The position numbers and the translations under genes are program-made. The notes beneath the pieces were generated by a model that did no database searches, had not been told where the DNA came from, and worked only from the letters and a program-made list of their open reading frames with translations. DNA of 64,000 nucleotides from Saprospiraceae bacterium (GTDB taxonomy: Bacteria; Bacteroidota; Bacteroidia; Chitinophagales; Saprospiraceae), in the NCBI GenBank assembly GCA_020629035.1, contig JAHDEC010000001.1, positions 62,001 to 126,000 of the forward strand, in the 5' to 3' direction. Shown here one piece after another: positions 1,901 to 64,000 of the stretch (the first letter of the stretch is position 1; each line of letters begins with the position of its first letter).

Positions 1901-1903
1901 CAT

Positions 1904-2086: not shown

Positions 2087-2143
2087 GACATTTGCCATAA
2101 AATTTTCGTTTTAATACGGAATAAGAAGCTATTAAAATCGACC

Positions 2144-5100
2144 ATGGGTAAAAGAATACTACATTCTTTAAGCATCTTTTTAATATTTCCCGCTATTTCA
2201 TTTGGAATGGACTTTATTCCTGTGTCTGAGGATACTATTCCACCAGTAATACTTCAAGAAGCTACCAGTTTAGAAACGTCTTGCGATGATAATACTGAAA
2301 GTAATTTTGCCGTATGGTATAACGATTCAGGAGGAATGCAGGCCATGGATAATAGCGGAAATTTTACGGTAGGTCAAACCATTAGTTTCTTAGACGCACT
2401 AGATACCCTAAATAACGGATCCGAAGGTTTTTGTGGAAACAATGTATTTCTCACCATTGGTTTTTTTGCGGTTGACGATTGTGGAAATTCGTCCGATACA
2501 ACTTATGCTCTTTTTAACACATTCGATATAGTAAAACCTGAGGTACTGGTTCCGAGTTCAGATAAACAAGCTGCTTGTGGTTTTGGGATTGCGGATACGC
2601 TAGAAACCTGGTTACAATCATCAGGTGGAGCCATTGCTGAGGATCAATGTGGTGGAGTAATTTGGGATGATTATATATGGAATGATAGTGAGGGAAACAA
2701 TGGTTTTGGAAAGCTCTCCGAAGAAACGGAAATTGAAATTAATAGAACGAATTGCGATTGGTCAGTAACCGTTTCCTTTTTTGTTCGTGATGATTGCCAA
2801 AATCTAAGTGTGACCACTGGTCAGTTTTCCATAATTGACACACTTGCGCCTATCGTCGACCCTTTGCCAGTGGATTTGACTGTCCAATGCAATGCGATTC
2901 CTTCACTCAATACCTATCAGGTAGTCGATGGTTGTGATGGACTGATTGCTGCTGAGATATCTGAAGAAACAACTCAGCATCCCGATCCAGATAGTTGTAA
3001 CCATTATCAATTTGAAATAGCAAGAAAATGGGTTTTTGAAGATCGATGTGGGAATATGGATTCTATGTTTCAATCATTAGTAATTATTGATACGCTCGAA
3101 CCTCAGGTAAATTACCAGAACTCTATTTCTGTTTCTTGCAGTGCGGACTTAAACGATGTAAGTCTATTCTTAGAATTGGAAGAAAGTTGTGGAATGATTA
3201 CCGTTGAATTTGAGGACGGTCCGATAATCAATAATATTTGCGTAGATGAATTCGATCGTGCTTGGACGCTAACGGATATTTGTGGAAATACCACCTCATT
3301 TAGTCAAAACATTCAACTTCAAGATAATGAATCGCCTATTATAAATATTGAGCCTGAAAACCTGATCATTACCTGCGGTGATGTAAACGAAATAGATGAT
3401 CAAGTCAATGCCTGGATGATGGGAAGAGGAGGAGCGGAAGCAACAGATGCTTGCACTAATTTAAATAGTTTTGTGGCCATTCCAGGGAGTTATGATATTA
3501 ATGATCCTACGAGCTTTCCTGGAAGTAGTTTTTCACTGACTTTTGATGAGCTTTGTGTCAATGTTGTGGGCGGTATATTTTATGAGCAAATCGCAGACTT
3601 CGTATACTTTGATGGATGTGGTAATGCTGTAGCTTCTCAAGCTTTAGTTCAGATAGTGGATGACATGGCACCTTTGTTTAATTTTTGTCCAGATGATCTG
3701 GTTATCCAATTAGAAGGTGATGATTGTTTAGAAGACATAATCTTAGATGTACCTATAGCCGCAGATAATTGTATCCAATATCCTATAATCATTTTGGATA
3801 CCATCGCTAATCCTATTACTTCTCCTTCTCCAGGTGATGCTTCCGTATTAGTGGATTCATTACAATATATTTTTGGACCATATGAAGGAGGCTTAAATGA
3901 CCAAGAACTAGGATCAATTAGCATCTTAATTAATAATCTAGATGCAAACTCGATGGAAGAATATTTCATCATTGAAATAGAAGGTACGGTGGTTGATTCC
4001 ACTCCGATTTTACTAATCGAATGCTCAGATACTAGTTATGTACTTAATAATTTCGATGAAAACCTATGGTCCGAATGGCTAGCAGATGATATCCTTGAAA
4101 TTAACTTATATCCAAACCAACCCATTCAAGAAGTACTAGGAGTCAATGATGTTTGCCCGGGTGCAAGAGTGGATTTTATGGTTAGTTTACCCAGCATTGA
4201 AACACTAGATATCAGTTATGCTTACGCTTTAAATGAAGGAGAAGAAATCGGGCTGAATGGTGAAAGTGAAATAACTTTTCCCTTGGCTCCAGGTGAACAT
4301 TTGATTGAGATTTATGCTACAGACTGTGCTGGTAATAGAAACACATGTGAAACCCAGATAGAGATTGTAGATATTGTTCCTCCCGAGATAAGCTGCCCGG
4401 CGAACCAAACTTATGAAGTAGGAGATGATGAGTGTAGCATAAATGTTGTTTTACCAGCTGATTTCGTCTATAGTGACAATTGTTTAGGAGAAAGTGTGAG
4501 CACGTTATTAAACCCAGAAAGCATAGAGCAATCCTATCTGCAATTTGATTATGATGAGGACAATGATTTGTTTTTTGCTAATGATGTGGTGTTTGATGTG
4601 GCCATCTCATCCATTGATGGAAAATTATATGAGCCTAAAGTAAGTGTCGAATATCTTGCTGATTTTACAGAGAATGCAGGTTGGGAGTTGTATGATGAAA
4701 ATGGCAACTTATTGGGTAGTTTCACTACCAGTAATCATTGTGCTAGAAATGAGTCACCGGAAATTTTGATTGAGATTGCTGATTTTGAAGCTTGGATATT
4801 AGATGGGAATATAGGATTTACTTTAACGACAACCGGAAATGTCAGACCTTGCGGAACAGTAAATGATGACAACATTGATGAAAATAGTTTTGCCCAATTA
4901 AAACTTGTCTATCAAGAAGTGTTACCAGGATATGAGATGACAGGTGATACCCTGCTACAAGGTGATTTTGTAGCTATAGATAATGCACCAGCGCTAAACT
5001 TGGAAGTGGGCTTTTATAATGTGGTATATGAAGTTCAGGATAATTCTGAAAACTCTGCTTTTTGTGAATTTACCATCGAGGTGCTTGATCAGCAATTACC

Positions 5101-8100: not shown

Positions 8101-8428
8101 TGAATGTCCTACTATTTGTGATGAAGCATTGGTTGTGGTTCGAGTAGGAAATGAGGCAGATTGCTTTATCTCGAATGTACTAACACCAAACAATGATGGC
8201 TTTAATGATTATTTTGAAATCCCTTGTTTAAATACAAGACTATATCCCGATAATAAGTTGATTATTTTTAATCAATGGGGTGATGAAGTCTACAGAGCAC
8301 AGCCCTATGAAAATGATTGGGCTGGTGAATTTAATGGTAATGTTTTACCAGCAGACACCTATTTTTATATCATAGATTTTGGGACGAATCGGGAGCCTAT
8401 TCAAGGATTTATAGTTTTACACGAATGA
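2144..8428 (+). CDS. Large secreted multidomain protein with T9SS type B sorting domain (gliding-motility-associated C-terminal domain)
   Basis: A 2094-residue exported protein. A signal peptide is visible at residues 1-21 (Lys-Arg start, LSIFLIF core, ending AISFG). Residues about 30-1060 hold HYR-like and HYR modules marked by repeated D-x-CGN and P-x-I-x-C-P patterns; one HYR region (about 745-990) carries a long insertion. Residues about 1070-1800 hold roughly eight Ig/PKD-like repeats with the recurring C-x-G-[ED] start and a W-x-G-P-N core. The C-terminus (about 2007-2094) is a type B sorting domain: NVLTPNNDGFNDYF, then IFNQWGDEVY and a final GFIVLHE strand. Such domains direct Bacteroidota proteins through T9SS to the cell surface. 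The gene overlaps the next (PorP/SprF) by ATGA, suggesting translational coupling to its outer-membrane partner. An adhesin or matrix role is inferred; no enzymatic domain was seen. Confidence 0.92.
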   Translation: MGKRILHSLSIFLIFPAISFGMDFIPVSEDTIPPVILQEATSLETSCDDNTESNFAVWYNDSGGMQAMDNSGNFTVGQTISFLDALDTLNNGSEGFCGNNVFLTIGFFAVDDCGNSSDTTYALFNTFDIVKPEVLVPSSDKQAACGFGIADTLETWLQSSGGAIAEDQCGGVIWDDYIWNDSEGNNGFGKLSEETEIEINRTNCDWSVTVSFFVRDDCQNLSVTTGQFSIIDTLAPIVDPLPVDLTVQCNAIPSLNTYQVVDGCDGLIAAEISEETTQHPDPDSCNHYQFEIARKWVFEDRCGNMDSMFQSLVIIDTLEPQVNYQNSISVSCSADLNDVSLFLELEESCGMITVEFEDGPIINNICVDEFDRAWTLTDICGNTTSFSQNIQLQDNESPIINIEPENLIITCGDVNEIDDQVNAWMMGRGGAEATDACTNLNSFVAIPGSYDINDPTSFPGSSFSLTFDELCVNVVGGIFYEQIADFVYFDGCGNAVASQALVQIVDDMAPLFNFCPDDLVIQLEGDDCLEDIILDVPIAADNCIQYPIIILDTIANPITSPSPGDASVLVDSLQYIFGPYEGGLNDQELGSISILINNLDANSMEEYFIIEIEGTVVDSTPILLIECSDTSYVLNNFDENLWSEWLADDILEINLYPNQPIQEVLGVNDVCPGARVDFMVSLPSIETLDISYAYALNEGEEIGLNGESEITFPLAPGEHLIEIYATDCAGNRNTCETQIEIVDIVPPEISCPANQTYEVGDDECSINVVLPADFVYSDNCLGESVSTLLNPESIEQSYLQFDYDEDNDLFFANDVVFDVAISSIDGKLYEPKVSVEYLADFTENAGWELYDENGNLLGSFTTSNHCARNESPEILIEIADFEAWILDGNIGFTLTTTGNVRPCGTVNDDNIDENSFAQLKLVYQEVLPGYEMTGDTLLQGDFVAIDNAPALNLEVGFYNVVYEVQDNSENSAFCEFTIEVLDQQLPSIACVEAATVEIDPSGLVEYELTELVFVESFADNCPGTNISFEPASFSCDNIDTEELITVTIEDGSGNINTCQTLVNIRPFDLELTFSSGLCVGDTLQLASNIPDPPLIDAYQYNWTGPNGFVSNEKEPFIISPDASYSGTYILEVEGFNSCFTSSSIEVLVEQLADPIIEASQNNICKGETILLNSTSYTGGVSYSWYEGLPPNGILFQESNGPVIEISPIEGDHQYYVVVEGAECVSNASEVIELSVVAKPEASVNDFFINVCDGEPIVFSSDVFDANYTYFWFGPNGYTGSGQFPEGIEESDESNQGSYSLYIEDSGCLSDTTSFQVTVFAKPVTPIINGETILCEGGNFFLSVSNITNADQYIWFKDGVLFSTVNDANSLMVEDAQSTLSGAWEVIAKVGNCESDLSSSFNVSVEAQIPLGANNEGPVCVGDSVQLNATFVPDASYLWTSPNSETFSGQRPKVLALQGEYSVTVTSSNGCTSDAVTFVDLIDIPTITSLSNSAPNCLSPNTDIQFFATVFPPGNYQYVWTGPNNFNSVDPSPIIENVGLNQNGVYTLQLINNGCPSEEVSTSVSMVLNPVDPVILDIGSACVGDDLVLETNYAMEDNCTFNWQTPIGQITNETGTLNIFEASINDAGDYSVTVNKAGCNSVSSTEYMLEIFAIPSPPSIIGTDVLCVGETIILEAFNETGDIVWSGPNNFTNEVNIVEIPNADLDNEGEYTVTLEVNGCVSDPSSPFFVDVLEDPEPIINSEIQDTICRTNSANWEYCFDGIQVDTFDFVQVYTEQDVYVSDLENGCISIDLSTSGESMFSFYFVSFKDDCSSLPSAFLNVEIFDDISLIASIDEDSLYMCDTILFDLRANIPSSDLLDIAWSSNTNDVKFTDSTSMFTDVILQDFGTYEVYLETSNQRCGLIGRDTLKLVYEDDIRALDELVFVDLESEKLVDLFANDESVNEFTASIITEPSEFEIEWEVDGINIITNKRFLGQDSFRYEICSNECPTICDEALVVVRVGNEADCFISNVLTPNNDGFNDYFEIPCLNTRLYPDNKLIIFNQWGDEVYRAQPYENDWAGEFNGNVLPADTYFYIIDFGTNREPIQGFIVLHE

Positions 8429-9372
8429 GAAAATATATCGCATATATCGCTTGTTTTTGCAGCTTCTCATTATTTGGCCAGCAAGAAATTTTAAATACAC
8501 AATTTGGGTATAACAAATTAGTTTTTAATTCGGCTTATGCAGGTGTGGAAAAGTATACGACCATAACAATGGCCGTCAGAGATCAATGGAATGGTATCCC
8601 AGGAGCACCTACCAATCAACTCATTTCTGCATCGATACCTTTCAAATCTAAACGAATTGGACTAGGTGTTGTAGCTTCCCGATATACCATTGGAATTCAA
8701 GAGCGAATAACACTTAGGGGTATGTATGCTTATCGATTTGATCTTGGACCCGGAAAATTAAGTTTAGGTCTTGAAGCTTCTGGTAGAAGGTATGTAACTG
8801 ATTTTACTGATGATCGGTTACTGGCCATTGACGGCATTGATCCAGACCCTAATTTAACGCTTGCACGCTTTAACAACTTTACATTTAATACAGGTGTAGG
8901 AGCTTATTTTAAAACCAAATCATTTTATGCTTCTGTTTCATCACCTAGATTAATAAATGTATCCTTTGATGAAGATAAAAATAGCCAGTTAAGTAAAGAA
9001 AAAAGACACTTATATGCAATGGTTGGTAATTTATTTGAGCTAAAAAATGATTGGAATTTGAGTACTCAAATACTATACAAAGTAGCACAAAACTCCCCGT
9101 ACGATCTAGACTTGCAGGCAGGCTTAATTTATAAAAACGATTATCATATTGGTATTAATTATCGAGTAGGTGGTAATCGGGAGAGTGCAGGAGAATCTAT
9201 TGCTTTGCTTTTTGGGATAGAGCCATTCGAACAACTTTTCTTTGGCTTTTCGTATGACTTTACCTTGTCCGCATTAAGAAGTTATGATACAGGTTCACTC
9301 GAACTTTTGATTCAATACAGCATTGGAAAAAAGGCTAAATCCTCAGATATAATCAATCCAAGATTCTTCTAA
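8425..9372 (+). CDS. PorP/SprF family type IX secretion system membrane protein
   Basis: A 315-residue protein with an N-terminal signal peptide (MRKYIAYIACFCSFSLFGQ) and alternating beta-strand composition typical of an outer-membrane barrel. The family hallmark is seen in the first third: QFGYNKLVFNSAYAG, then AVRDQWNGIPGAPTNQLISAS, then a run of glycine-rich strands. Length fits PorP/SprF homologues (about 300-350 residues). SprF is needed for surface display of SprB in gliding flavobacteria, and paralogues of it commonly sit directly after genes for proteins with type B sorting domains. The start overlaps the stop of the upstream gene by 4 bp and the stop overlaps the next start by 1 bp, so the three genes form one operon. 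The likely client is the 2094-residue protein, which is inference from adjacency. No symbol is given because many paralogues exist per genome. Confidence 0.92.
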   Translation: MRKYIAYIACFCSFSLFGQQEILNTQFGYNKLVFNSAYAGVEKYTTITMAVRDQWNGIPGAPTNQLISASIPFKSKRIGLGVVASRYTIGIQERITLRGMYAYRFDLGPGKLSLGLEASGRRYVTDFTDDRLLAIDGIDPDPNLTLARFNNFTFNTGVGAYFKTKSFYASVSSPRLINVSFDEDKNSQLSKEKRHLYAMVGNLFELKNDWNLSTQILYKVAQNSPYDLDLQAGLIYKNDYHIGINYRVGGNRESAGESIALLFGIEPFEQLFFGFSYDFTLSALRSYDTGSLELLIQYSIGKKAKSSDIINPRFF

Positions 9373-11051
9373 TGGAAAAACTAGCAAGAACCATATACGT
9401 ATTAATTGCTTGCTTACTTGGCATAAATAGCTATGGCCAACACTTCAGTGAAGAAGTTATGAAAACCATTAGCGTAAACAATGAATCAAACATAAATACT
9501 GCAGAAAGAGATTTTTCCCCTGCTTACTGGGACGAGCAATTAATATTTGTGCATAGTGGTTCAAGCACTGCACAGCTGGATAATAAATTAAACGAACCAT
9601 ATTTCGATTTAAAATTTGCAGTGCAAGGCCTGGAAGGAAACTATATAAAGTCAGCCTATTTACCTAAAACGATTAATTCCCCATACCATGAAGGTCAAGT
9701 CAGTATTGATGGTTCTGGAACTATGTACTTTACTAGCGATAATTCTGTGGAAAACAAATTAATTGAAGATGAGGATGGAACAACGCACTTGCAGATTTAC
9801 ACAAGCCAACGAGTAGGTAATCAGTGGCAAACGAAAGAGCTTTGGTCACAATGCAATCGCCAATATTCCTATACCCATCCAAGCATTACAGCAAACGGAG
9901 ATAGTTTGTTATTTGCTGCAAATTTACCAGATGGACAAGGTAAAATGGATTTATACTTAAGTGTAAGAGAACAAGGGAGTTGGTCAAATCCAATACCTTT
10001 AACCAATCTAAATTCTGAAGCAAATGATTGGTTTGGTTTTCTCAAAAATGGTAAAGTTTACTTTGCTTCTGATCGAGACTCTATTGGTGGTTTGGATATT
10101 TATGTTGCTTCTTTAAATGAGCAAGCATTAAGCTCTCCCGTAAAATTACCTGCGCCCTTTAATTCACCTAAAGATGATTTTGGATTTATTATAGACGATG
10201 CAGGAGCAAGTGGATATTTTTCTTCAGATCGTCAAGGAGGAAAGGGCAAAGATGACATCTATCGGTGGCAAGCGGATACAAGTATCTATTATGTGGCTCC
10301 ACCTGAGATTTATAGCCTTAGTTTTAAAAATAGCTCGAGTATTACTGGACAGATTCCGATAAGATTAAGATGGACTTCCCTGGACAATGTTCCACTATCC
10401 GATTATAACTCTTGGGAGATTTTTGCTAACAAAATCCAATATGATTTAGATAAGTTATCATTTAGTGGAGCATTAGATACTTTTTTACTTAATAATGAAC
10501 TCAATATCTATTTAGAAGAAAATCAACTGGTCCATTATGAAGTGAGTGATCCTGCATTTAACCCATTAGAAGGCGTTTCTCTAGTTACAAAAGATGAAGA
10601 CGTCGCGTTAAATCTCTCCAAGAAAGTTGAAAAAATAAAACCTGTTCCAACGAAAAAAGTAACCATTCTGAATGTGCCAGTTGAAAAAGGATCGGTGATA
10701 GTTTTTAATAATATTTATTATGAGTTTAATAGCGCTGAACTAAAATCAAGTGCCTTTAGAGAACTTGATTTATTGGCCAATGCTATGTTAGAAAATCCAA
10801 AAATAAAAGTGCAATTAAGCGCTCATACAGATGCTCGAGGTTCAGATGTAGCTAACCAAAAACTATCCGATAAAAGGGCTCAATCTGCCAAGGAATATTT
10901 AGTAAAAAAAGGTATCCTTCCTACTCGTATTTACACAGTGGGTTTTGGTGAAAGTCGATTGCGAAACCATTGTGAAGATGGGGTAAACTGCACTGAAGAC
11001 GAACATCAGTACAACCGTCGAACTGAAGTGAAAATTTTAGAAAACAAATAA
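9372..11051 (+). CDS. PD40 beta-propeller / OmpA-family outer-membrane-associated protein
   Basis: A 559-residue exported protein with a signal peptide (ending NSYGQ at about residue 23). Residues about 45-310 contain PD40/WD40-like blades, recognisable from repeated FTSDN, YFASDRDSIGGLDIYV and YFSSDRQGGKGKDDIYRW motifs. A linker domain follows, and an OmpA C-terminal peptidoglycan-binding domain occupies about 440-559: YYEFNSAEL, then HTDARGSD with D487, and NQKLSDKRAQS with R502, the two residues that contact peptidoglycan in OmpA domains. This resembles T9SS PorE or gliding-associated OmpA proteins but lacks the N-terminal TPR of PorE, so it is more likely a locus-specific paralogue. It begins within the TAA of the PorP/SprF gene (TAATG), making it the third gene of the operon. 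It probably tethers the secreted complex to the cell wall (inferred). Confidence 0.9.
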   Translation: MEKLARTIYVLIACLLGINSYGQHFSEEVMKTISVNNESNINTAERDFSPAYWDEQLIFVHSGSSTAQLDNKLNEPYFDLKFAVQGLEGNYIKSAYLPKTINSPYHEGQVSIDGSGTMYFTSDNSVENKLIEDEDGTTHLQIYTSQRVGNQWQTKELWSQCNRQYSYTHPSITANGDSLLFAANLPDGQGKMDLYLSVREQGSWSNPIPLTNLNSEANDWFGFLKNGKVYFASDRDSIGGLDIYVASLNEQALSSPVKLPAPFNSPKDDFGFIIDDAGASGYFSSDRQGGKGKDDIYRWQADTSIYYVAPPEIYSLSFKNSSSITGQIPIRLRWTSLDNVPLSDYNSWEIFANKIQYDLDKLSFSGALDTFLLNNELNIYLEENQLVHYEVSDPAFNPLEGVSLVTKDEDVALNLSKKVEKIKPVPTKKVTILNVPVEKGSVIVFNNIYYEFNSAELKSSAFRELDLLANAMLENPKIKVQLSAHTDARGSDVANQKLSDKRAQSAKEYLVKKGILPTRIYTVGFGESRLRNHCEDGVNCTEDEHQYNRRTEVKILENK

Positions 11052-11257
11052 CGATTTTTGGTTATATAAAAAACATACGTTGTTAATTTATTATATATTA
11101 TTATATTATTTAATATGATATATATATCTTGCACTGTATTCCATTTACCGATTTAAAGGCTGAAAAGGGTTGTTGATTGCATTTGGTGCTCATCTATCCT
11201 ATTGGCTGTACCCATACCAAAGGCAGTAATACATGTTTTATTAAAATGTATTATTAA
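11052..11257 (+). promoter_or_regulatory. Intergenic leader of the first giant gene
   Basis: This 206-bp gap is very AT-rich at its 5' end (11070-11130). No exact TAnnTTTG box is present; the nearest candidate is TATATCTTG at 11123-11131. CCGATTTAA lies at 11148-11156, and the same 9-mer occurs twice in tandem in the leader of the third giant gene. No strong terminator hairpin was seen after the OmpA-family gene, only a weak ATAAC/GTTAT pair just past its stop, so some read-through into the giant gene is possible. Promoter assignment is tentative. Confidence 0.3.
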
Positions 11258-33151: not shown

Positions 33152-33160
33152 TAATTTATA

Positions 33161-33200
33161 AAGCAAAACATATTATAAATATATTTAATATGTTTTGCTT
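33161..33200 (+). terminator. Hairpin terminator after the first giant gene
   Basis: A perfect 15-bp inverted repeat: AAGCAAAACATATTA at 33161-33175 and TAATATGTTTTGCTT at 33186-33200, with a 10-nt AT-only loop. It begins 9 bp after the stop codon. There is no long T tract directly after the stem on this strand, so it is a good hairpin but not a textbook U-tailed terminator. The final T of the right arm is also the first T of a TAnnTTTG match. Confidence 0.7.
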
Positions 33201-33207
33201 ATATTTG
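33200..33207 (+). promoter_or_regulatory. Candidate Bacteroidota promoter -7 box (TATATTTG) for the second giant gene
   Basis: TATATTTG matches the TAnnTTTG consensus exactly and lies about 125 bp before the start of the second giant gene, in the 181-bp gap. No clear TTTG-type -33 element was seen at the usual distance upstream, where the terminator hairpin sits. The implied leader is about 115-120 nt. Confidence 0.4.
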
Positions 33208-33326
33208 TATCAATCATTTTACAATAACGACTGAACTTACACAAATTGACACTATGTTAACTCATAGGTCAGGACCTGTATTACCTAGATAGTAGCACCT
33301 TATTTATTAGCTTTTAAATAAATGAT

Positions 33327-51266: not shown

Positions 51267-51271
51267 AAGAG

Positions 51272-51312
51272 AAGGTGCAAAGACTATTTTTATAGTTTTT
51301 GCACCTTTTTTT
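51272..51312 (+). terminator. Intrinsic terminator after the second giant gene
   Basis: A 16-bp stem (51272-51287 paired with 51292-51307, one G-U pair) with a TTTT loop, followed by TTTTT at 51308-51312. The left arm starts AAGGTGCAAA and the right arm ends TTTGCACCTT. It begins 6 bp after the stop codon. Textbook Rho-independent form on the plus strand. Confidence 0.92.
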
Positions 51313-54700: not shown

Positions 54701-57700
54701 GGATTCTACCAATATGACCCTATTGCTGGCGCTGCTGCAAGATGTAATACAGCTAATCTAGGGTCTATGTGTAGAACTGTTGAACCATTTAACATCACAT
54801 GTGCTGGAGAAGTAGAAGCAAGAACAGATATAGAATTAAATAATTGTGGAGGTACTGTTGAACATACATTTTGGGTAAAAGAATTGCCTGGGACTCCTGG
54901 AGATCCTTGGTTTACATCTGAATATAGACCAGTAGTAGAAATGTATGATGTGAGTTCTCCTATATATTCTCCATTGGCATACTGCAGTAATGCTCAAGTC
55001 ACAAGAAATGGAGTAAGTGTTGATTTAGTTGTAGACTCTACAACCAATATGAGTTGTAGCCCAGTAGCTGGATTTAATGATGATCTTTGTGCCGTAGATG
55101 TTGGAACTGAAGGTGAAGTAATTTTCAATTTATTTGATCAAGGAATCTCAGGTTTAGGAGTTGGCTTAGACAATTGTGATACCATTAAATTGTCATACGA
55201 TTATTGCATGATTTGTCCAGTACCAATCGAAGGCTTATTGGACTATAAAATGGAATTGGATTACTGTAATGCTGGACATATAATGGACGAGTGTAGTTCC
55301 TTAAAATACATAAGCACATTGGTTGCTGTGGGGCATCCAGCAAGAGCAACTTACGAGGCAAGAACTTATGCGGATGATTATCCTTTTGCAACTGGTTTGA
55401 ATTATTATGATTTACTAAGATATGATACGATCTATTGCAAAGACAATGCAGAATTCCCAGTTGTATTTGTAGATGATAGCGAGGTTACTCCGACCTTGCC
55501 ACTAACAGCAGCAAATGTGGATGGCAAGGAATTAATTGCTTCAGAAAGTGCTGGAGTAAGCATTGAATTAAAAGAAATAGAGTTTTGTAACCCTGATCCG
55601 GAAGATGCCCTAGGTTTCAGCGGCTATGTTACGGTTCCAAATGCGATAGCATTTATGGGAGCTTGCATGAATCCAGATGGTACCATGCCGTTAACTACAG
55701 CTTTAGTATCCGATGATGGTCAATTAAAGAAATATAAAGTTGATTTTCCTTCGACAACATTGGGTACGGGTGATTGTATTCAAATTTTTGTAAAAACTAC
55801 CTTATTATATTGTCCTGAACCAGGTTCATTACCTCCGCAAGTGTGCGTAGGAGCAAGTGCTGGTTGTTCTCCTGAAGAAGTGCGTGCTGCAATAGGTGGT
55901 AGTGGTGCTTGTGCTTCAGCCGAAGTTTGTTATGTGTATTTATTTGGAGAGGCTGATTTACAGACGGAGTGGTTTGGAATGCCAGATGATCCACAACTTT
56001 GTGAGACCTTCACTTTAAATGTAAGAACAAAGAATGTTAAAAACTTATTATTACTAAATCTTGTCCCAACATTTGATCTTCCATTTGGAATGTCAGTAGT
56101 TCCAGGTTCTTGGGAAGTAGCTTATCCAGGTGGTTCAGTTGAAATGTTAGGAAATTTTGGACCATGGACCTCAGTAAGTGATCCAGATGTCGTATCTGGC
56201 TCTAGTTATTCTTGGTCAGATGACGCTTTATGGAATACTCATATAGATCTTAATGGTTTAGTAGGAGTAGGTTCTACTTTGGATAGTAATAAAGTATCTT
56301 TTAGATTTCAAGTAACTACTAATTGTGATGAATTTCTTTCAGGTTCTAGGCCAAAAACGGAGACATTAGCCAGTGATCCGTGTGGTCCCGGAAACTTGAG
56401 TTCTGGTAGTGTAGAATCACCGCAAATTATTATTGCCGGAGCAGATCCTGCTGATCACGCACAATTGTTAGCTGTTGCTAATCCAAGCGAATTATATTGT
56501 GGAGGTTTAACAAATACCTTCGGTATTACTGCTTTAAATATTTCAGAATACCCCACAACTGATAGTGTGGTTACCTGTGTAACTATACCTACAGATGTCC
56601 TAACTTACACGCCAGGCTCCATAGCTTTTTCAACTGGATTTATGCCTGCATGGACAACGGAAACTGTGATTGGAAATACTTTGCAAGTATGTGTTCATTC
56701 TCCTTCTATAGGTGTTGGTGAAACTTGGTCTCTGTCCTTTGAAGCCATCATGAATGAAGATGCACCTTGTGGAGATATAGAAATAGGAGCGGATATTAAG
56801 AGTGTAGTAGAATCAGCGACATGTGTTCCTGGACCACCAGAAGCATGTGATGTATTTGTACAAAACAGTCTAAATCCTTCCATATTTGTTGAATTAAAAC
56901 CGCCGCTGGAGACTACAGATTTACGAGTGAGTACAAGTTGTACAGAAAGCGAAGATCCTATTGAAGTTTGTTACGAAATTGATCTACAGAACCCAGGACC
57001 AATGTACGATGGTGATGTAACTGTTTCCATTTTTGATGATGTAACTTCTAATCAAGTGGTAGATTCTTATGATACAGAATTAAACAACGCGGTACATGCC
57101 GTAAGTTTAGCTAATGGAGAATCTACAACCATTATGATGTGTTTGGATGTAGACGCTATTCAAGCATGTCCAATCATTATTCGAAGAACTTTCGAAACGA
57201 ATTGTGCTTGTGATCATGAAGATACTCCGATTCAAAGTTTAGAGCCAAATTTCATTGCAGAATTAGCTGAGCTAACCGTATTATGTGATGACCAAGAATT
57301 AGGTCTTGATCTTTGTGGTGATTATACTTTAAGCTACGATCCTGCCTCAAATATGGTAGAGAGAATTACAGCAGATAGTATTTTCTTAAGTATAGTTGAT
57401 CCATCTATTGAAACAATGTTTACTATAACAGGAACGATAGGTGAGTGTCCATATGAAACAACCAAGTCAATTTTAGGGGTAACTGATTTTGAATTAGCAT
57501 TAGAGGGAGATGAGGCTTGCCAAGACCAAAATCTTGATTTAGTGCTTACTATCCCTGATGAATATCAAGATTATGTAACTGTCGAGTGGATGCCAGCCAC
57601 CTACTTGGATGACGCAAATAGTGCAGAGCCAATTTTTAATAGTCCAGATGTTGGGGTTTATAATTATTCTATAGTATTAACCTTTGGAGATGGATGTGAA

Positions 57701-60700
57701 TTAATGGATGAAGTAAGTGTAGAGGTGCTTCCAATTGGTGATTTAGGTATAGGTGGAGATATGACTTTTTGTGATGGTTACGCACCAGGGACATTAACAA
57801 CTGATGCAGGATTTGATTATTACGAATGGTACTTACTAACAGCAGGTTTGGAAGTTATCCAAGCTTCAACCACGACTCCTGAATGGAATGGACCGACATC
57901 CACTGGAGATTATTTGGTTAAAGGATTTAGATATACAGATGATTGTCCTTCAATCTCTGGAGCTCATACAATCACAGCCATTCCTTGTGTTGATATCGAA
58001 CTTGAAAAGTCGATTGTAGACATGCCATATCCAGCTCAGTTAGGTGATATAGTTACTTATGAAATTGAAGTTTGTAATGTACTCGACCCAGACTTAGGTT
58101 TAGTGCATAGTCAAGATAATGTGGTAGTAGAAGAAAATCTGCCAGCAGGTTTAACGTACACAGGCAACTCAGTAACCACAGGCTCATTTGCACCAGGAAC
58201 ACCAGGAGTATGGACTGTTGGCACTATGGCTGCTGGAGATTGTGAAACATTGACATTAATGGCATCTATTGATATGTTTGGAACATTTACCAATGTTGCG
58301 GAAGTGACAGGAGGTGATACTCCAGATGTTGATTCAGAAGTGGATAATGATGATGGTGATCAAAGTGAGGATGATGAAGATCCAGAAGAAGTAACCATAC
58401 CGTACGTTGATTTAGCATTGACAAAAATGCTTGATCCTGCAACAGTAACTCCAGTTACCGTGGGTGATGATGTAAACTTTATTATTGAAGTTTGTAATCA
58501 AGGAACCATTATAGCAACAAATGTTGAAGTGACAGATTACATTCCAGCAGGATATATTTTAAGTACATCTGATACAAATGGATGGGCGGACAATGATAAT
58601 GATGGTTTACATGAAAATACTATAGCTGGACCTATTGATCCTGAGATGTGTGCTCAAGTAGAAATCTTACTTACCGTTCAAGCAGCCATGAGCACCGATG
58701 ATTATATCAATGTGGCTGAAATTAGTGGTTCACAAGACGATATGGGTAATGACACAACCGATGATGATATTGACTCGACGGCTGATGAAGATGAGGGGAA
58801 TGATCCAGGTGGAGAAGTTGGAGGCGATACGGATGACACAACTGATGGTGAGAACGGAGATGAAGATGATTCTGATCCAGCAACAGTTCCAGTTGAATAC
58901 ACAGATTTAGCATTAATGAAAACCCTAGCTCCTGGACAACCACAAACGGTGATGCCGGGTGATTTTGTAGATTTTGAAGTAACAATCTTTAATCAAGGAA
59001 GCATAGATGCTTATAATGTTGGTATTATCGATTACATTCCATCAGGCTTAATGTATGATGACAGCTTTGGCAACAATAGTGCTGATGGATGGTCAGATAG
59101 TGATGCTGATGGTAATCCTGAAGCTACGCTTGCAGGTCCTATTGCAGCCTTTACTGGCTCAGAAACAATTATAATAACCTTACAAGTAGACCCAGATTTA
59201 GCAGCTCCAGCAGATTTAGAAAATGTAGCAGAAATCACAGGTTCTGAAGATGTAGATGGTGAGCCACAGGAAGATATCGATAGCACACCAGATGATGATG
59301 ATAGCAATGATGGAACCGTTGAAGATAATGCAACAGATGGTGAAAATGGAGATGAAGATGATTCAGATCCAGCTATCATAAATATAGAAGACGAACCAAT
59401 TTTTGATTTAGCCTTGGCTAAAACATTGGATCCTTCTACACAAACACCAGTTTATCCAGGTGATGTTATCACTTTCAATATCGAGGTTATTAACCAAGGT
59501 AATGTAGATGCATACAATGTAGAATTAACTGATAACATGGGTGCATGCCTTGAAGTGGATAGTCCAGAACCTAATGGATGGGTAGATAGCGACAATGATG
59601 GAGCTTACGAATTTGTAATTCCTGGACCAGTCGCAGCAGGTACATCAACTATTGTACAAATGGACGTGGTTGTGGCATGTGCAAGCAGTGACCCTGATGA
59701 CTATTTAAATATTGCAGAAATCAGCGAGGCTGAAGATGAAGATGGGAATCATCCAGAAGATATTGACAGTACACCAGATATGGATCCTGATAATGACTCG
59801 ATGAATCCAGAAGATGATAACGAAACAGAAGAAGATGGATCAGAAGGTGATGACGAAGATGATCATGATTGGGAATTTGTTCCAGTTGAGACCTTTGATT
59901 TGGCATTGGTAAAAACACTTTCTGCAACTCAGGACATGCCTATTATGCCTGGAGACGAAGTTGTTTTCGATATCGAAGTGATTAACCAAGGAACGGTTGA
60001 TGCATACAATATTGATGTGACTGATTATGTACCTAGCGGTCTGGAATACATGGATAGCTATGGTAATAATGCAGCAGACGGATGGTCTGATATGGATGGT
60101 GATGGAAATCCAACAATTACCATTAACGCCTTAACGGCTGGTAATGCAGTAACGGTTCAAGTGAGCTTAATCGTACTGCCAGGAACACAAGGTTCGTTAA
60201 CAAACTGGGCTGAAATCGGTGCTGCAGAAGACGAAAATGGTGATATGCCTGAAGACGTCGACAGTACACCAGATGATGACCCTAATAATGATGAATTTGG
60301 AGACGATAACCAAGAAGATGGTGATGGATCAGATGATGAAGATGATCACGACCCTGAAGAAATAACGATAGACTATTTTGACCTTGCTTTAACTAAAGTG
60401 CTAAGTGATGGACAGTCTCAGTATGTAAGTCCTGGAGATGATGTTTCATTTACCATAGAGGTTTGTAATCAAGGTACAATCACAGCAACTGATATCATGA
60501 TTGCTGAATACTTGCCATCAGGTACAGTATATAGCACAAATGATACAAATGGTTGGACAGATGTAGATATGGATGGTGATTATGAAAATACCATAGCTGG
60601 ACCTGTTGAACCAGGAGACTGTGCAAGTATAGATTTCATATTGACCGTATTGCCGTCTACACCAGCACCATTTGAACTAACAAACTGGGCTGAAATAGCA

Positions 60701-63700
60701 GGTGCCTCGGATGGAGATGGAAATCCTGCTGATGATGTGGATTCTACCGCTGATGATGATCCTGATAATGACGAGTATGGGGATGATAATCAAGAAGATG
60801 GTGATGGAATGGATGATGAGGATGATCACGATCCTGCAGTGTTCTACACATCAGATGAAGAAATATTTGATTTAGCATTGGACAAAGAAATTAGTCCAGA
60901 TCAAGATGTACCAGTTTATCCAGGTACAGATATCACCTTTGTAATCACTATTGAAAATCAAGGAAACACAGATGTAACCAATGTAACGGTAGAAGATTAC
61001 CTTCCTGCTTATTTAACATTGAGTTCAGCAGATACCAATGGATGGGTAGATGCAGATGCGGATGGAAATCCAGATCAAGTAATCCCAAGCATGATGGCAG
61101 GGGAGTCGATTATGCTAGAAATAGTGGTGACACTTGATGCAGGATTTAGCGGAACTAGCATCGAGAATAGTGCAGAAATTACTGAATTCTTTGATGAAAA
61201 CGGTGACCAACAAGAAGATACAGACAGTACACCTGATGATGATCCAGACAATGACGAAGATGATGAAGATGACGAGGATACAGTAGAATTACCAGTAGCT
61301 ATGTTTGATTTAGCTTTAACTAAAACGCTAAGTCCAGACGAAATGGCTCCATATATGCCAGGTGATGTGGTAACTTTTGTGGTGACTGTGTATAATCAAG
61401 GTACAGTAGATGCGTACAACGTAGGTGTTGTAGATTATTTACCTGCCGATTTAACACTGAGCCCTAGTGATATGAATGGATGGGTAGATAGTGATGCAGA
61501 CGGCAATCCAGAAAATACTATAGCGGGTCCTATCCTTGCAGGTCAATATGCTTTTGTCAACATTGATCTTGTGATTAATCCAGCATTAATGACGCCTGCA
61601 GACTTAACAAACTTTGCCGAAATTACGATGGCTGAAGACGAAAACGGTAACATGCCACCAGACATCGATAGTGATCCAGATGATGATCCTGATAATGATG
61701 CAGAAGGTGACGACAATCAGCAAGATGGTGACGGTACGGATGATGAGGATGATCAAGATTGGGAAACTATTCCAGTAATTACTGAAGTATTTGATCTTGC
61801 ACTACAAAAAGTAATTAATCCAGATCAGGAGTTTCCTGTAGGGTTAGGTGACGATATCACCTTTGATATTTGGGTGTACAATCAAGGAAATATTCCTGCC
61901 ACAAACATTGAAGTATCTGAATATATGCCATCTGGAACAATGATGAGCACTGCGGATATGAATGGCTGGACTGACTTCGATAACGATGGTACTTATGAGC
62001 AAACGATTCTTGGACCTCTAGCACCTGGAGACTCAGTATTGTTGATGGTAGTCTTAACGATTACAGATGTAAGTGATCCACTTGGATTAGTTAATGAATC
62101 TGAAATTAGTGGTGCGGATGATGAAAATGGAGATGCAATAGAGGATATCGACAGTACACCAGATGGTGATCCAGATAATGATAATGGTGGAGATCCATAT
62201 GATGATACAAACAACGAAATTGATGATGATGGCACAAATGATGAAGATGACCATGATCCTGAAGTAATTCCAATTTTTGACTTAGCCTTAACTAAAACAA
62301 CAAGTTGGACAGATCCAATAACCTATGGAGATGATATTCCTTTTGATATCAATGTTATAAATCAAGGAAATATATCTGCTTATGAAGTAGAAGTCACAGA
62401 ATATATTCCATGTGGATATTTCTATGATCAAGCTAACAATCCATTATGGACTTATGATATGGCTACATCGACAGCAACAACAACTATAGCTGGACCTATT
62501 GATCCTGTTATGACGACGACGGTGCCGATTGTACTGACTGTACAGCCATGTCCAGATGGTGATCCTGCTAGTAATTGGACTAACTCTGCCGAAATTAGTG
62601 GAGCACAAAATGAAGATGGAGAAGATATGTCAGATGATGATCCAGATAGTACGCCGGATAACGATCCAGATAATGATCCAGAAGGAGACAACAATCAAGA
62701 GGATGGTGACGGAACAGCTGACGAAGATGATCATGATTGGGAAACTCCTCCAATCTTTGACTTGGCTTTAACAAAAGAATTAGCAGCTGGTCAAATGACG
62801 CCTGTAAGTTTAGGTGATGATGTGACCTTTACGATTACGGTATACAACCAAGGAACGATTACTGCAACAAATGTAGAGGTGTCAGATTATGTTCCTGAAG
62901 GATATTGCCTAAGTCCAAACGATACTAATGGATGGGCAGATCCTGACATGAATGGTATATATACGGCAACCATTGCTGGACCTATTACTCCTGGTATGAA
63001 TGCTACAATAGACATCGTACTAGAAGTAAAAGCAGCGATGTCATCAGACGATTATATAAATGTAGCAGAGATTAGTGGCTCAATGGATGATATGGGTAAC
63101 GACACTACAGATGATGACATTGATTCAGATGCTGACGATAATGAGCACAATGATGATGGAGGAGAAGTTGGTGGTGATACAGATGATACCATTGACGGCG
63201 AGGAAGGTGATGAAGATGATGCTGATCCAGCAACTGTCGATGTAGAATTCTTTGATCTTGCCATGGTTAAAATGTTAGCTCCAGGTCAGCCACAACAGGT
63301 AATGCCAGGTGATGATGTAACCTTCTTAATAACGGTTATAAATCAAGGAACTATAGATGCATATAATGTAGCCATAGCAGAATATCTACCGGCTGATATG
63401 ACATTAAGTTCAGCAGATACTAACGGCTGGACGGATGTTGATGCAGATGGTATTCTAGAAAATAGCATTGCAGGACCTATCGCAGGATACGGTGGTACGG
63501 ATATGATCGAAATTGTAGTAACCATTAATCCTTCACTAAGCACTCCTGCTGAACTGACTAACTGGTCAGAAATTAGTGGTGCTGAAGATGAAAATGGTGA
63601 ACCACAAGATGATGTAGATAGTACTCCAGATGATGATCCAAACAATGATCCATACGGTGATGATAACCAAGAAGACGGCGATGGTACAGATGATGAGGAT

Positions 63701-64000
63701 GATAGTGATCCGGCAGTAGTTGAGGTAAGTGATGAAGAAATCTTTGACCTTGCTCTAGTCAAAACTCTAGATCCAGCTACAGAAACACCAGTATATGTAG
63801 GAAGTGAAATTACCTTCTATGTAGAAGTGTTTAATCAGGGTAACATTACTGCGATGAATATCGAGCTGACGGATAATATGGGTGCAAGCTTAGCATTAAG
63901 TAGTAATGATACAAATAGCTGGGTAGATAGTGATAATGATGGCGCTTATGAAAACCTAATTGTAGGACCTTTAGCACCAGGGCAATCAGAAATTATCCCG
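51701..64000 (+). CDS. Giant secreted DUF11-repeat protein, C-terminus beyond window (at least 4100 aa)
   Basis: An ATG at 51701 opens a frame that stays open to the last base, giving 4100 codons with no stop. In-frame checks near 53759, 55169, 58409, 60002 and 63941 agree. The signal peptide core is LLSLCIATLAFTPLMYGFG. Residues about 30-2090 form a Cys-rich head of unknown family, with patterns like those in the head of the preceding giant (VCGNPDTLSF versus VCGQPQIHTL; a TNCACD/TTCACN motif further on), followed by an Ig/PKD-like part near 2010-2095. From about residue 2097 (57989) to the edge are 13 DUF11 repeats joined by Asp-rich linkers. The protein is probably exported by Sec and then T9SS like its neighbours, but the sorting domain is not visible, so type A or B is unknown. 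Likely role is a surface fibre or adhesin (inferred). It is preceded by a strong terminator, so it is a separate transcription unit. Confidence 0.88.
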   Translation, partial: MGNVRFKTLLSLCIATLAFTPLMYGFGFFDLFKLNNEEKSVEQSLIEIDLVDQARLNYQLSNCENEAYYYDEYSKAKTSLIDHIKSVKGIENAASRMSSDGCPNIQIVDLREVAGFPQADNLNVCGNPDTLSFLIFTDDPGVVDGFEMTLNMVQGMRYAGFEDTHNGGCTSISNSDPDINSPSFVANGVTCDDIFVANIGVGADCAVDIENGEYIVEIEYNYFYFPPSGTPIPCSGSFTIEDNFNNALKTPVLNMSNPSPIDAIVTSLQAPFCQNISISQDGLQAYLNEFEFSICGIDASPSSLISIPSITANGIDLTPGAVYNPADSSMTVTVGSDIFPTNGSENPFGESDQFDTDESVSIQVCYEVANCPSNSDIPFTYKAEYGCYDETCQTTGQGSILKVRPVGSESAIITATLSNSMQICGDDAEVVATIQNGNAEDTEQNVYTNFHIGFQACGIPAIAVTEVTVNGISVPPVWSLAGDDVDISFEDNLNAGIGLVDHDGDGFFDDLPGGSAPLEVIVKFNLSCSDPGAASGECVDINCENVQFYISGETNCGNTFKNFPDTGGFGLKYGAETVSNPDEMDLNTTGTVVGYNFGVFGNPQGAKTIEMTFCYDFNSENIESCPSGANIRYKLVVSGPDAYTDDLEYVPGTAMFSDDDINNFVAVDDSNVSMDYPTEGQAVMIIDFGLDPPPGLVCYKFQLEMEEPACAPASFLPASQQISSVCSDCETDCEILQACRSTLLRIDPNDTGCVCVASYETLSNERTNLGYKDKTMTEQWTKQELIDEGFAIDLGRFMPGDTLQHRGFLEIVNAELLNDPVFWDLSWSYYALSGTDTKMPALPLVIDAAASVLDTIRIENPDGSTHVVDISDLAGCASSGSSTYYESNFSTFGKQPWGTYNIEHPCNRNSGYNTYDFRDNQYLSWSLYNYEKIDDCGGTWANFAEGNCLDEFIDAYDITLNSKIYFTFRVPLVKNPHRETAELLGLEPPLETTARIYPSGGFYQYDPIAGAAARCNTANLGSMCRTVEPFNITCAGEVEARTDIELNNCGGTVEHTFWVKELPGTPGDPWFTSEYRPVVEMYDVSSPIYSPLAYCSNAQVTRNGVSVDLVVDSTTNMSCSPVAGFNDDLCAVDVGTEGEVIFNLFDQGISGLGVGLDNCDTIKLSYDYCMICPVPIEGLLDYKMELDYCNAGHIMDECSSLKYISTLVAVGHPARATYEARTYADDYPFATGLNYYDLLRYDTIYCKDNAEFPVVFVDDSEVTPTLPLTAANVDGKELIASESAGVSIELKEIEFCNPDPEDALGFSGYVTVPNAIAFMGACMNPDGTMPLTTALVSDDGQLKKYKVDFPSTTLGTGDCIQIFVKTTLLYCPEPGSLPPQVCVGASAGCSPEEVRAAIGGSGACASAEVCYVYLFGEADLQTEWFGMPDDPQLCETFTLNVRTKNVKNLLLLNLVPTFDLPFGMSVVPGSWEVAYPGGSVEMLGNFGPWTSVSDPDVVSGSSYSWSDDALWNTHIDLNGLVGVGSTLDSNKVSFRFQVTTNCDEFLSGSRPKTETLASDPCGPGNLSSGSVESPQIIIAGADPADHAQLLAVANPSELYCGGLTNTFGITALNISEYPTTDSVVTCVTIPTDVLTYTPGSIAFSTGFMPAWTTETVIGNTLQVCVHSPSIGVGETWSLSFEAIMNEDAPCGDIEIGADIKSVVESATCVPGPPEACDVFVQNSLNPSIFVELKPPLETTDLRVSTSCTESEDPIEVCYEIDLQNPGPMYDGDVTVSIFDDVTSNQVVDSYDTELNNAVHAVSLANGESTTIMMCLDVDAIQACPIIIRRTFETNCACDHEDTPIQSLEPNFIAELAELTVLCDDQELGLDLCGDYTLSYDPASNMVERITADSIFLSIVDPSIETMFTITGTIGECPYETTKSILGVTDFELALEGDEACQDQNLDLVLTIPDEYQDYVTVEWMPATYLDDANSAEPIFNSPDVGVYNYSIVLTFGDGCELMDEVSVEVLPIGDLGIGGDMTFCDGYAPGTLTTDAGFDYYEWYLLTAGLEVIQASTTTPEWNGPTSTGDYLVKGFRYTDDCPSISGAHTITAIPCVDIELEKSIVDMPYPAQLGDIVTYEIEVCNVLDPDLGLVHSQDNVVVEENLPAGLTYTGNSVTTGSFAPGTPGVWTVGTMAAGDCETLTLMASIDMFGTFTNVAEVTGGDTPDVDSEVDNDDGDQSEDDEDPEEVTIPYVDLALTKMLDPATVTPVTVGDDVNFIIEVCNQGTIIATNVEVTDYIPAGYILSTSDTNGWADNDNDGLHENTIAGPIDPEMCAQVEILLTVQAAMSTDDYINVAEISGSQDDMGNDTTDDDIDSTADEDEGNDPGGEVGGDTDDTTDGENGDEDDSDPATVPVEYTDLALMKTLAPGQPQTVMPGDFVDFEVTIFNQGSIDAYNVGIIDYIPSGLMYDDSFGNNSADGWSDSDADGNPEATLAGPIAAFTGSETIIITLQVDPDLAAPADLENVAEITGSEDVDGEPQEDIDSTPDDDDSNDGTVEDNATDGENGDEDDSDPAIINIEDEPIFDLALAKTLDPSTQTPVYPGDVITFNIEVINQGNVDAYNVELTDNMGACLEVDSPEPNGWVDSDNDGAYEFVIPGPVAAGTSTIVQMDVVVACASSDPDDYLNIAEISEAEDEDGNHPEDIDSTPDMDPDNDSMNPEDDNETEEDGSEGDDEDDHDWEFVPVETFDLALVKTLSATQDMPIMPGDEVVFDIEVINQGTVDAYNIDVTDYVPSGLEYMDSYGNNAADGWSDMDGDGNPTITINALTAGNAVTVQVSLIVLPGTQGSLTNWAEIGAAEDENGDMPEDVDSTPDDDPNNDEFGDDNQEDGDGSDDEDDHDPEEITIDYFDLALTKVLSDGQSQYVSPGDDVSFTIEVCNQGTITATDIMIAEYLPSGTVYSTNDTNGWTDVDMDGDYENTIAGPVEPGDCASIDFILTVLPSTPAPFELTNWAEIAGASDGDGNPADDVDSTADDDPDNDEYGDDNQEDGDGMDDEDDHDPAVFYTSDEEIFDLALDKEISPDQDVPVYPGTDITFVITIENQGNTDVTNVTVEDYLPAYLTLSSADTNGWVDADADGNPDQVIPSMMAGESIMLEIVVTLDAGFSGTSIENSAEITEFFDENGDQQEDTDSTPDDDPDNDEDDEDDEDTVELPVAMFDLALTKTLSPDEMAPYMPGDVVTFVVTVYNQGTVDAYNVGVVDYLPADLTLSPSDMNGWVDSDADGNPENTIAGPILAGQYAFVNIDLVINPALMTPADLTNFAEITMAEDENGNMPPDIDSDPDDDPDNDAEGDDNQQDGDGTDDEDDQDWETIPVITEVFDLALQKVINPDQEFPVGLGDDITFDIWVYNQGNIPATNIEVSEYMPSGTMMSTADMNGWTDFDNDGTYEQTILGPLAPGDSVLLMVVLTITDVSDPLGLVNESEISGADDENGDAIEDIDSTPDGDPDNDNGGDPYDDTNNEIDDDGTNDEDDHDPEVIPIFDLALTKTTSWTDPITYGDDIPFDINVINQGNISAYEVEVTEYIPCGYFYDQANNPLWTYDMATSTATTTIAGPIDPVMTTTVPIVLTVQPCPDGDPASNWTNSAEISGAQNEDGEDMSDDDPDSTPDNDPDNDPEGDNNQEDGDGTADEDDHDWETPPIFDLALTKELAAGQMTPVSLGDDVTFTITVYNQGTITATNVEVSDYVPEGYCLSPNDTNGWADPDMNGIYTATIAGPITPGMNATIDIVLEVKAAMSSDDYINVAEISGSMDDMGNDTTDDDIDSDADDNEHNDDGGEVGGDTDDTIDGEEGDEDDADPATVDVEFFDLAMVKMLAPGQPQQVMPGDDVTFLITVINQGTIDAYNVAIAEYLPADMTLSSADTNGWTDVDADGILENSIAGPIAGYGGTDMIEIVVTINPSLSTPAELTNWSEISGAEDENGEPQDDVDSTPDDDPNNDPYGDDNQEDGDGTDDEDDSDPAVVEVSDEEIFDLALVKTLDPATETPVYVGSEITFYVEVFNQGNITAMNIELTDNMGASLALSSNDTNSWVDSDNDGAYENLIVGPLAPGQSEIIP
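57989..64000 (+). repeat. DUF11 repeat array with a 4350-bp super-period in the third giant gene
   Basis: DUF11 repeats begin near 57989, 58409, 58904, 59405, 59896, 60376, 60871, 61306, 61795, 62278, 62759, 63254 and 63746. Most are 480-500 bp long; the one from 60871 is about 435 bp because its acidic linker is shorter. Repeats 2-4 match repeats 11-13 specifically: the GGEVGGDTDDT linker occurs only at 58811 and 63161, APGQPQ only in repeats 3 and 12, and DNMGA only in 4 and 13. Offsets are exactly 4350 bp for repeats 2 and 3 and 4341 bp for repeat 4, showing that a nine-repeat block was duplicated. Confidence 0.9.

Follow-up and report, generated by a model that had tools for sequence, protein, structure and literature searches.

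In Flavobacterium johnsoniae, substrates of the type IX secretion system (T9SS) are described as following routes that depend on the class of their C-terminal sorting domain (CTD): proteins with type B CTDs depend on cognate PorP/SprF shuttles, those with type A CTDs on PorV, and type A CTD fusions are either statically anchored or released (extracts of PMC12618676). SprB, which has a type B CTD, needs SprF (extracts of PMC12618676 and PMC9143113), and in Porphyromonas gingivalis PorP binds both the type B protein PG1035 and PorE (extracts of PMC9143113). The locus analyzed here resembles these systems in part. It occupies most of a 64,000-nucleotide window of a Saprospiraceae genome (contig C39:62001-126000, from a draft genome of 4.08 Mb that is 96% complete), in which a three-gene unit encoding a type B protein, a PorP/SprF protein and a PD40-OmpA protein (unit 1) is followed by a series of giant genes. 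As in the SprB/SprF system, the giants are very large repetitive T9SS proteins with SprB repeats, and the type B gene of unit 1 is directly followed by PorP/SprF. Unlike SprB, the giants have a type A-like CTD, a dockerin and a cohesin-like domain, and no PorP gene comes directly after them. The gene structure, CTD classes, family relationships, dockerin and cohesin modules and their conservation, all computed here, lead us to infer that the giants are secreted, surface-located adhesive proteins that dock on another protein. More specifically, we propose that two T9SS units of independent build stand side by side, and that the giants would be exported by the type A route and dock in trans, through their dockerins, on the cohesins of a separate scaffold, an account that we consider probable, if by a small degree.

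The first-pass annotation of the window had listed a 2094-residue protein, a PorP/SprF gene, an OmpA-family gene and three giants in tandem, and the open reading frame (ORF) list and Pfam place these genes as described, with every ORF of unit 1 and giants 1-3 on the plus strand across 2144-64000. Giant 1 (11258..33151, plus strand; 7297 amino acids, aa) is built of HYR arrays with higher-order units of ~705 aa, SprB repeats, a base module and a type A-like CTD. Giant 2 (33327..51266, plus strand; 5979 aa from a GTG start codon, with an in-frame ATG at 33333) has DUF11, SdrD_B and SprB repeats (15 stretches) and ~310-aa units before its own base module and type A-like CTD. The first 4100 residues of giant 3 (51701..64000, plus strand) comprise its N-terminal part and a DUF11 array, and the frame is open at the window edge. 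Extending the contig past 64000 completed giant 3 to 6873 aa (4100 + 2773), with a base module that carries an FG-GAP insert, and yielded a fourth giant of 3005 aa at contig positions 134746-143763, 423 bases past giant 3; the count of three holds within the window, and there are four in all. The genes past giant 4 are on the opposite strand; the first of them (L011:17834-20000 and L012:1-1272, the L and G handles standing for loci and genomes of this study) resemble by eye a sensor kinase and a response regulator. Pfam reports PorP_SprF, OmpA with PD40, HYR, SprB and DUF11 in the locus, having covered the first 3500 and last 1049 residues of giant 1. All four giants are acidic (D+E 15.7-20.5%, K+R 2.3-3.2%); signal peptides were assessed by eye, and repeat numbers could be wrong in a draft assembly. 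The annotation had also described the giants as related proteins with distinct module sets, which is borne out by their shared base and differing Pfam repeats, and we regard them as probably secreted.

The class of their CTD bears directly on the export route. The type A model TIGR04183 is the best match in all four isolated giant CTDs (83-87 aa), and for giant 1 (32888..33148, plus strand) it reaches 26.8 bits in isolation, above the cut-off of 23, and 21.6 in a 1049-aa fragment. Segments of paralogues with the same base pass the model in five of five cases (28.0, 42.3, 47.4, 23.9 and 36.8 bits). The type B model CHU_C has 46 matches in the genome at E <= 0.001, none of them in the giants, and TIGR04131 likewise has no match in the giants. 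An AlphaFold2 model of the last 387 residues of giant 1 (51-sequence alignment, pLDDT 93.4, pTM 0.80) places residues 301-387 close to the CTDs of T9SS proteins: PorZ 5m11 (Z 10.0, rmsd 2.2, 81 aligned, 20% identity), PorU 6za2_B (Z 9.8) and the NucA CTD 8glk_D (Z 9.6, 75 of 75 aligned). Ig-like folds of other kinds are on a par with these matches (complement C3 8oq3_A, Z 10.5), the rows of the domain-wise search lie within ~1-2 Z of one another, and residues 1-182 are barely covered; a plain Foldseek search with the 387-aa model gave low-TM, multi-domain beta-sandwich matches only. The genome encodes PorU (1207.5 bits), with PorV (426 bits) adjoining it, and SprA (1546.6 and 449.5 bits in one frame), through which the giants would exit. 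They thus probably belong to the type A route, an assignment that is strongest for giant 1. Since their CTDs are type A-like and not type B, the adjoining PorP is not their expected partner, and the case carries a general warning: adjacency to a PorP/SprF gene does not assign a substrate, whereas the CTD class does.

Each giant base contains a type I dockerin and a fast-evolving cohesin-like domain, neither of which had been noticed before in this locus. The base module, delimited by blastp between the giants and common to all four, spans ~1,250 aa in giant 1 (29396..33151, plus strand) and 47499..51266 (plus strand) in giant 2, where it is 44.6% identical to that of giant 1 over 1259 columns; among the giants identity is 43-53% over the main alignments of ~1,030-1,600 columns. 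Its order is HYR-like domains, a CarboxypepD_reg-like stretch, the dockerin, the cohesin-like domain and the CTD. With PF00404 (cut-off 22.9) the giant 1 dockerin (32156..32323, plus strand; model residues 57-112) scores 27.0 bits in isolation and 26.6 in the genome scan, and that of giant 2 (50283..50426, plus strand) 23.7 and 23.9, so that both isolated segments are above the cut-off. The genome scan gave 27 matches to this profile, spread over 21 open frames, and 23 of them exceed the cut-off, those in all four giants included. Dockerins with solved structures (4uyp_B, E 1.8e-5) are retrieved by a profile made from 11 bases. The cohesin-like domain of giant 1 (32534..32884, plus strand; model residues 183-299) matches in the AlphaFold2 model type I cohesins such as 3kcp_A (Z 10.1, rmsd 2.4, 106 aligned). 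Neither PF00963 nor our own cohesin profile matches this domain in any of the four giants, while PF00963 does match a 1499-aa paralogue (39.9 bits) and three further ones; because the profiles miss it, the call rests on the fold of giant 1 and on alignment to the matching paralogues.

These two neighbouring domains evolve very differently. Over the last 590 residues of the four giants, the dockerin is the best-kept part (73-84% identity) and the cohesin-like domain the worst-kept (25-29%), with the CTD at 36-49% and the other base parts at 41-65%. Between giants 1-4 and their orthologues in G001, a genome of the same genus, dockerin identity is 96, 100, 89 and 89%, and that of the cohesin-like domain, the lowest of any part in each giant, 50, 51, 50 and 67%. 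A well-kept dockerin beside a fast-changing cohesin is therefore a weak pointer to a common partner elsewhere.

A candidate for such a partner is encoded on the same contig. About 60 kb upstream of unit 1, a 1218-aa protein (contig 4750-8403) combines three cohesins with SprB repeats and a type B CTD; its gene is followed by a PorP gene of its own and preceded by a 1508-aa dockerin frame (L166:4750-9385, contig C39). Taken in isolation, the three cohesins score 21.9, 30.5 and 27.4 bits with PF00963 (cut-off 24.1), two of the three above it, and they are 72-87% identical to their G001 counterparts; the scan of the whole protein reported neither the cohesins nor a carbohydrate-binding module. 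The same neighbourhood of a dockerin gene, a multi-cohesin type B gene and PorP recurs in G001, G002, L143 (JAHDCU010000011.1, four cohesins) and L106 (CALFUK010000036.1, five cohesins); G006, G014 and one of the two G016 loci likewise have a dockerin gene next to the scaffold or close by. For the L143 cohesin, a structural model (pLDDT 89.7) has its best match at Z 19.9 and rmsd 1.5 over 134 of 141 residues; among the 50 fold matches listed, 48 are named as cohesins and two as complexes of cellulosome scaffoldins. Cohesin profile matches were obtained in 18 of 30 relatives (17 among the 19 family members and one among the remaining 11), some of the weak ones being the cohesin-like domains of the base cassettes themselves. 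When the loci of all 17 family genomes with a match were read with our own profiles, 13 (of the 19 searched) had a frame that combines a type B CTD with two to eight cohesins, PorP adjoining it on one side or the other. In G010 and G013 there were several cohesins but no CTD could be seen; G015 had a single cohesin together with a type B CTD, and G005 nothing of this build. PF00963, applied to one scaffold cohesin per genome, confirms nine of the ten cohesins so examined, that of G006 being without a match. A cohesin match is present in each of the 13 genomes whose cassette match reaches E <= 1e-40, an association that is not significant within the family. On sequence grounds, the tri-cohesin protein is thus a better partner candidate for the giants than the PorP of unit 1. 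Cohesin genes in a Saprospiraceae metagenome-assembled genome (MAG) have been noted as cellulosome modules (an extract of PMC8547425), and among the matches listed in the open-access literature none describes a dockerin-cohesin T9SS system of this kind. According to this proposal, the giants would stand on the surface by their base with the N-terminal stalk outward, as T9SS logic suggests, and the dockerin would serve as a common plug for the cohesins of a separate scaffold, so that docking may tie the giants and other dockerin proteins to scaffolds held by PorP.

Several results weigh against this proposal and deserve to be gathered. In whole-protein or long-fragment scans PF00404 stays below its cut-off (22.6, 17.4, 21.1 and 20.7 bits, the first for giant 1 in a 1049-aa fragment and the second for giant 2 in a 999-aa fragment). 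By eye, the first dockerin loop (D-x-x-P-L-N-G-V-S-T-L-D) is degenerate, with a leucine at the usual calcium-ligand site; the canonical loop has a calcium ligand at that position. Both profiles also match among 14 control genomes: PF00404 has matches in five, above the cut-off in two, and PF00963 in two, above the cut-off in one. As for the export route, one of the four isolated giant CTDs passes TIGR04183, the others scoring 20.8, 19.4 and 17.0 bits, and with the ends of ~1000 aa the model is reported for giant 1 only, below the cut-off, giants 2-4 being without any sorting-domain match. The co-occurrence of cassettes and cohesins is confounded with family membership (p = 8.7e-5 for all 30 genomes and 0.088 for the family alone), and three scaffold cohesins stand against 21 dockerin frames. 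Genes with at least three cohesins were found near cassette genes in 2 of 78 loci, with flanks of up to 10 kb, and most dockerin genes are therefore without a demonstrated scaffold neighbour. Conservation itself is ambiguous: against G001, the dockerin is the best-kept part in giants 1 and 2 only, the HYR stretch that precedes it being better kept in giants 3 and 4 (92 and 93% versus 89 and 89%), and the conservation of the dockerin may reflect a constraint of its fold. Finally, the dockerin lies mid-chain, and the cohesin-like domain adjoining it might bind it in cis.

The last point is the basis of the best-surviving alternative, in which the dockerin and the adjoining domain form a rigid, intramolecular, calcium-dependent unit that keeps the base of the stalk together, and the giants, as type A adhesins, stand free with no scaffold. 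Both modules do adjoin in the 11 aligned bases (the cohesin-like part being mostly judged by alignment), and the 387-aa segment of giant 1 is predicted as one confident block. The contrast between the best-kept and the fastest-changing part of the base is, on the other hand, unexpected for a pair that co-evolves in cis, and separate multi-cohesin proteins exist. Some dockerin proteins, moreover, have no cohesin match (L167:4945-5580 and L223:691-2865), although the profile also misses the giants' own domains. On balance we consider an intramolecular arrangement rather unlikely.

The trans docking proposal can be extended from the giants to a wider set of proteins. Seventeen dockerin frames, the giants included, match our own type A CTD profile, and Pfam adds L170. 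Dockerin proteins of the genome carry HYR, DUF11, SprB, lectin or FG-GAP modules, and Pfam reports no enzyme domain in the 15 that were scanned (giants 1 and 3 and L170 being covered in part), so that the assembly would be an adhesive or structural lattice and not a cellulosome. The likeness to the clostridial cellulosome lies in type I dockerins on many secreted-type proteins, a non-catalytic multi-cohesin scaffold and the cohesin fold, with the Z of 19.9 given above. Unlike the cellulosome, the dockerin proteins are without a reported enzyme domain, the sorting domains are of T9SS types A and B, the genome's own scaffold is without a reported carbohydrate-binding module, and binding is here predicted. 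It is possible, and we put this forward tentatively, that Saprospiraceae build a non-enzymatic, cellulosome-like adhesive lattice over two T9SS routes, in which a multi-cohesin scaffold, placed by its type B CTD and its own PorP, would be the common socket for about eighteen type A proteins; these, with the four giants among their number, would plug in exchangeably by a strongly conserved dockerin. Were docking true, giant adhesins of the Bacteroidota would be another setting for cohesin-dockerin assembly, which is known from cellulosomes; both T9SS sorting classes would meet on the surface, type B as the socket and type A as the plugs; and the presence of one strongly conserved small module on many different repeat proteins of a single genome would be explained. 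Two further arrangements of these modules were seen. At L167:4945-5580 a 212-aa dockerin frame is followed 1.5 kb on by an 883-aa frame (7109-9757) with two cohesin matches, DUF7619 and a type A CTD. In five genera, small proteins that have a single cohesin and match the type A CTD (frames of 260-284 aa; L203:11001-11795, L207:8093-8872, L209:5639-6424, L214:5037-5888 and L215:9916-10731) are encoded just upstream of the multi-cohesin gene.

The size of the giants, the SprB repeats in giants 1 and 2 and the presence of SprA might also suggest moving gliding adhesins of the SprB kind. SprB, however, is itself a type B protein that depends on SprF (extracts of PMC12618676 and PMC9143113), no giant has a CHU_C match, and fusions to type A CTDs are statically anchored or released according to the same extracts of PMC12618676, which makes a gliding role improbable.

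Unit 1 provides the material for a further explanation. Its first gene (2144..8428, plus strand) encodes the 2094-aa protein, which is of secreted type and has, besides HYR/Ig/PKD-like domains, a CTD of type B (CHU_C; PF13585, 88.9 bits; TIGR04131, 55.0 bits, cut-off 35), and is overlapped by 4 bases by the gene for a 315-aa outer-membrane protein of the PorP/SprF family (8425..9372, plus strand; PF11751, 182.9 bits; TIGR03519, 197.3 bits). The third gene (9372..11051, plus strand) encodes a 559-aa PD40 beta-propeller and OmpA protein of PorE-like layout (PF00691, 66.1 bits; PF07676, 43.7 bits). Having both a CHU_C/TIGR04131 CTD and an adjoining PorP/SprF gene, the 2094-aa protein has the marks of a type B substrate, and the PorP at 8425-9372 is its expected shuttle or anchor as judged from gene content. 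The arrangement of type B protein, PorP and propeller-OmpA protein recalls PG1035-PorP-PorE of P. gingivalis; it differs in that the OmpA protein is without a TPR match in the Pfam report and without a lipobox visible by eye, scores far below the cut-off of the PorE model (NF052230, 204.2 bits, cut-off 600), and accompanies a type B protein of 2094 aa. Unit 1 (2144-11051) may thus be an older three-gene module of type B protein, PorP/SprF shuttle and periplasmic PD40-OmpA partner, which would hold its own 2094-aa protein, and not the giants, on the surface.

The first-pass annotation had instead suggested PorP/SprF and OmpA as a single display cassette that could anchor the giants as interchangeable fibres, and had looked to gene order in relatives to decide. 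Adjacency on the same strand favours this idea, as does the occurrence of a giant behind the module in each of the three species of the genus: in G001 the order is complete, its four giants lying on two contigs with the break inside giant 3, and in G002 the gene directly after OmpA is a giant-3 orthologue (46% identity over 3397 columns) that runs off the contig end, its base end missing from that assembly. PorP matches were obtained in 14 of 16 other-genus genomes of the family and the best locus was read in 11, taken as orthologous without a tree (the matching genomes G005, G007 and G009 are outside the loci read); the G010 and G015 loci are too short for downstream reading, and in the other nine, with 5 kb or more (5-9 kb) to read downstream of the module, no ORF there reaches 1000 aa. 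Type B, PorP and OmpA genes are all present in seven of these other-genus loci (G003, G004, G011, G013, G014, G016 and G018, the type B gene of G013 being cut by the contig end), and gltX lies upstream of the module in G003, G016 and G017. Hence the giants are linked to the module within the genus and the module occurs without a giant in the 5-9 kb readable downstream in nine of nine other-genus loci, so that the scattering named beforehand as telling against the idea is found in part. Together with the mismatch of CTD class and the absence of all 46 CHU_C matches from the giants, this makes a shared display cassette very improbable, and we abandon it in favour of separate units with docking of the giants in trans. 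That collapsed or chimeric repeats in the assembly created the long frames is the least credible explanation of all and can be given hardly any weight, in spite of giant 1 repeats up to 85% identical at 705-aa spacing and of relatives' contigs that end inside giants, given that the frames are uninterrupted and have orthologues at 81-87% identity in another assembly.

The comparison with G001 is also informative about the history of the family. Orthologues of all four giants occur there in the same order, 81-87% identical where they align (for giant 3 in two pieces, 3700 and 2010 of its 6873 aa), and their presence shows that open frames of 12-22 kb are not due to chance. In a tree built on their last ~1,000 residues, the four giants group together (100/100) and each pairs with its G001 orthologue (100/100), the order among the four being left open; the pairing implies that the four copies are older than the split of the two species. 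Upstream on the contig, a stand-alone 1499-aa base protein (L009:4815-9314) is collinear with the ends of the giants, aligning to the base in two or three collinear pieces from just past its signal peptide, and the giants therefore look like this base protein with repeat arrays placed in front. It has a marginal C-type lectin match (PF00059, 23.0 bits, cut-off 22.6), and none is reported in the scanned parts of the giants. Besides the giants, three proteins with their C-terminal base are encoded upstream on the same contig, and the best named match of that base is to a Saprospiraceae MAG contig (JAHDHQ010000012.1, 111,616 bases). An FG-GAP propeller is inserted at the same position of the base in giants 3 and 4 (L011:4216-5250 and its giant 4 counterpart); among the loci compared, only L011 and two copies of one G001 contig match it.

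Repeat arrays in front of the base differ from giant to giant. Higher-order spacing is ~705 aa in giant 1, where repeats are up to 85% identical over 200-residue windows, 310 aa in giant 2 and 1450 aa in giant 3. Tandem Repeats Finder (period <=500 bases) reports short arrays only, the long units being visible at the protein level; a blastp self-comparison came without off-diagonal matches and was left unused. As open frames, giant 1 measures 7297 aa against 6371 in G001, and giant 2 5982 against 6606. A giant may then be described as a common base of ~1,250 aa at the cell end with a long repeat stalk, the number of units varying between species. Long stalks of Ig-like repeats are shared with the large bacterial adhesins of the SdrD/DUF11/HYR kind, from which the giants differ in sharing a base module with a dockerin; anchoring in those adhesins differs from that of the giants. 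Irrespective of docking, the locus points to a possible origin of giant genes: a stand-alone base protein would gain N-terminal repeat arrays, be duplicated in tandem and change in unit number between species.

Transcription of the giants as separate units, as previously suggested, is plausible from the intergenic sequence. The gaps upstream of giants 1, 2 and 3 are 206, ~180 and 434 bases. Behind giant 2 lies a strong hairpin of terminator type (51267..51312, plus strand), and behind giant 1 a perfect 15-bp AT-rich inverted repeat, found by eye and missing from the terminator scan list, which is a possible terminator (33161..33200, plus strand). Terminator-like sites number 17 versus 9.3 in shuffled sequence over 32900-51750 and 4 versus 6.5 over 1-11500. 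A Bacteroidetes-type promoter pattern has two matches in the window versus 3.47 expected by chance, none at any giant start, and a sigma-70-like scan does no better than shuffles in the same intervals (40 versus 42.2 over 1-11500; 59 versus 71.3 over 32900-51750).

Other large proteins of this general kind occur in the genome. A 4908-aa frame with SprB repeats and a type B CTD match lies elsewhere (L158:4395-19118), and PorP has no match in the 0.9 kb read downstream of it. Upstream of the region, three tandem look-alike proteins of ~1,110 aa each are encoded at L065:2512-12567.

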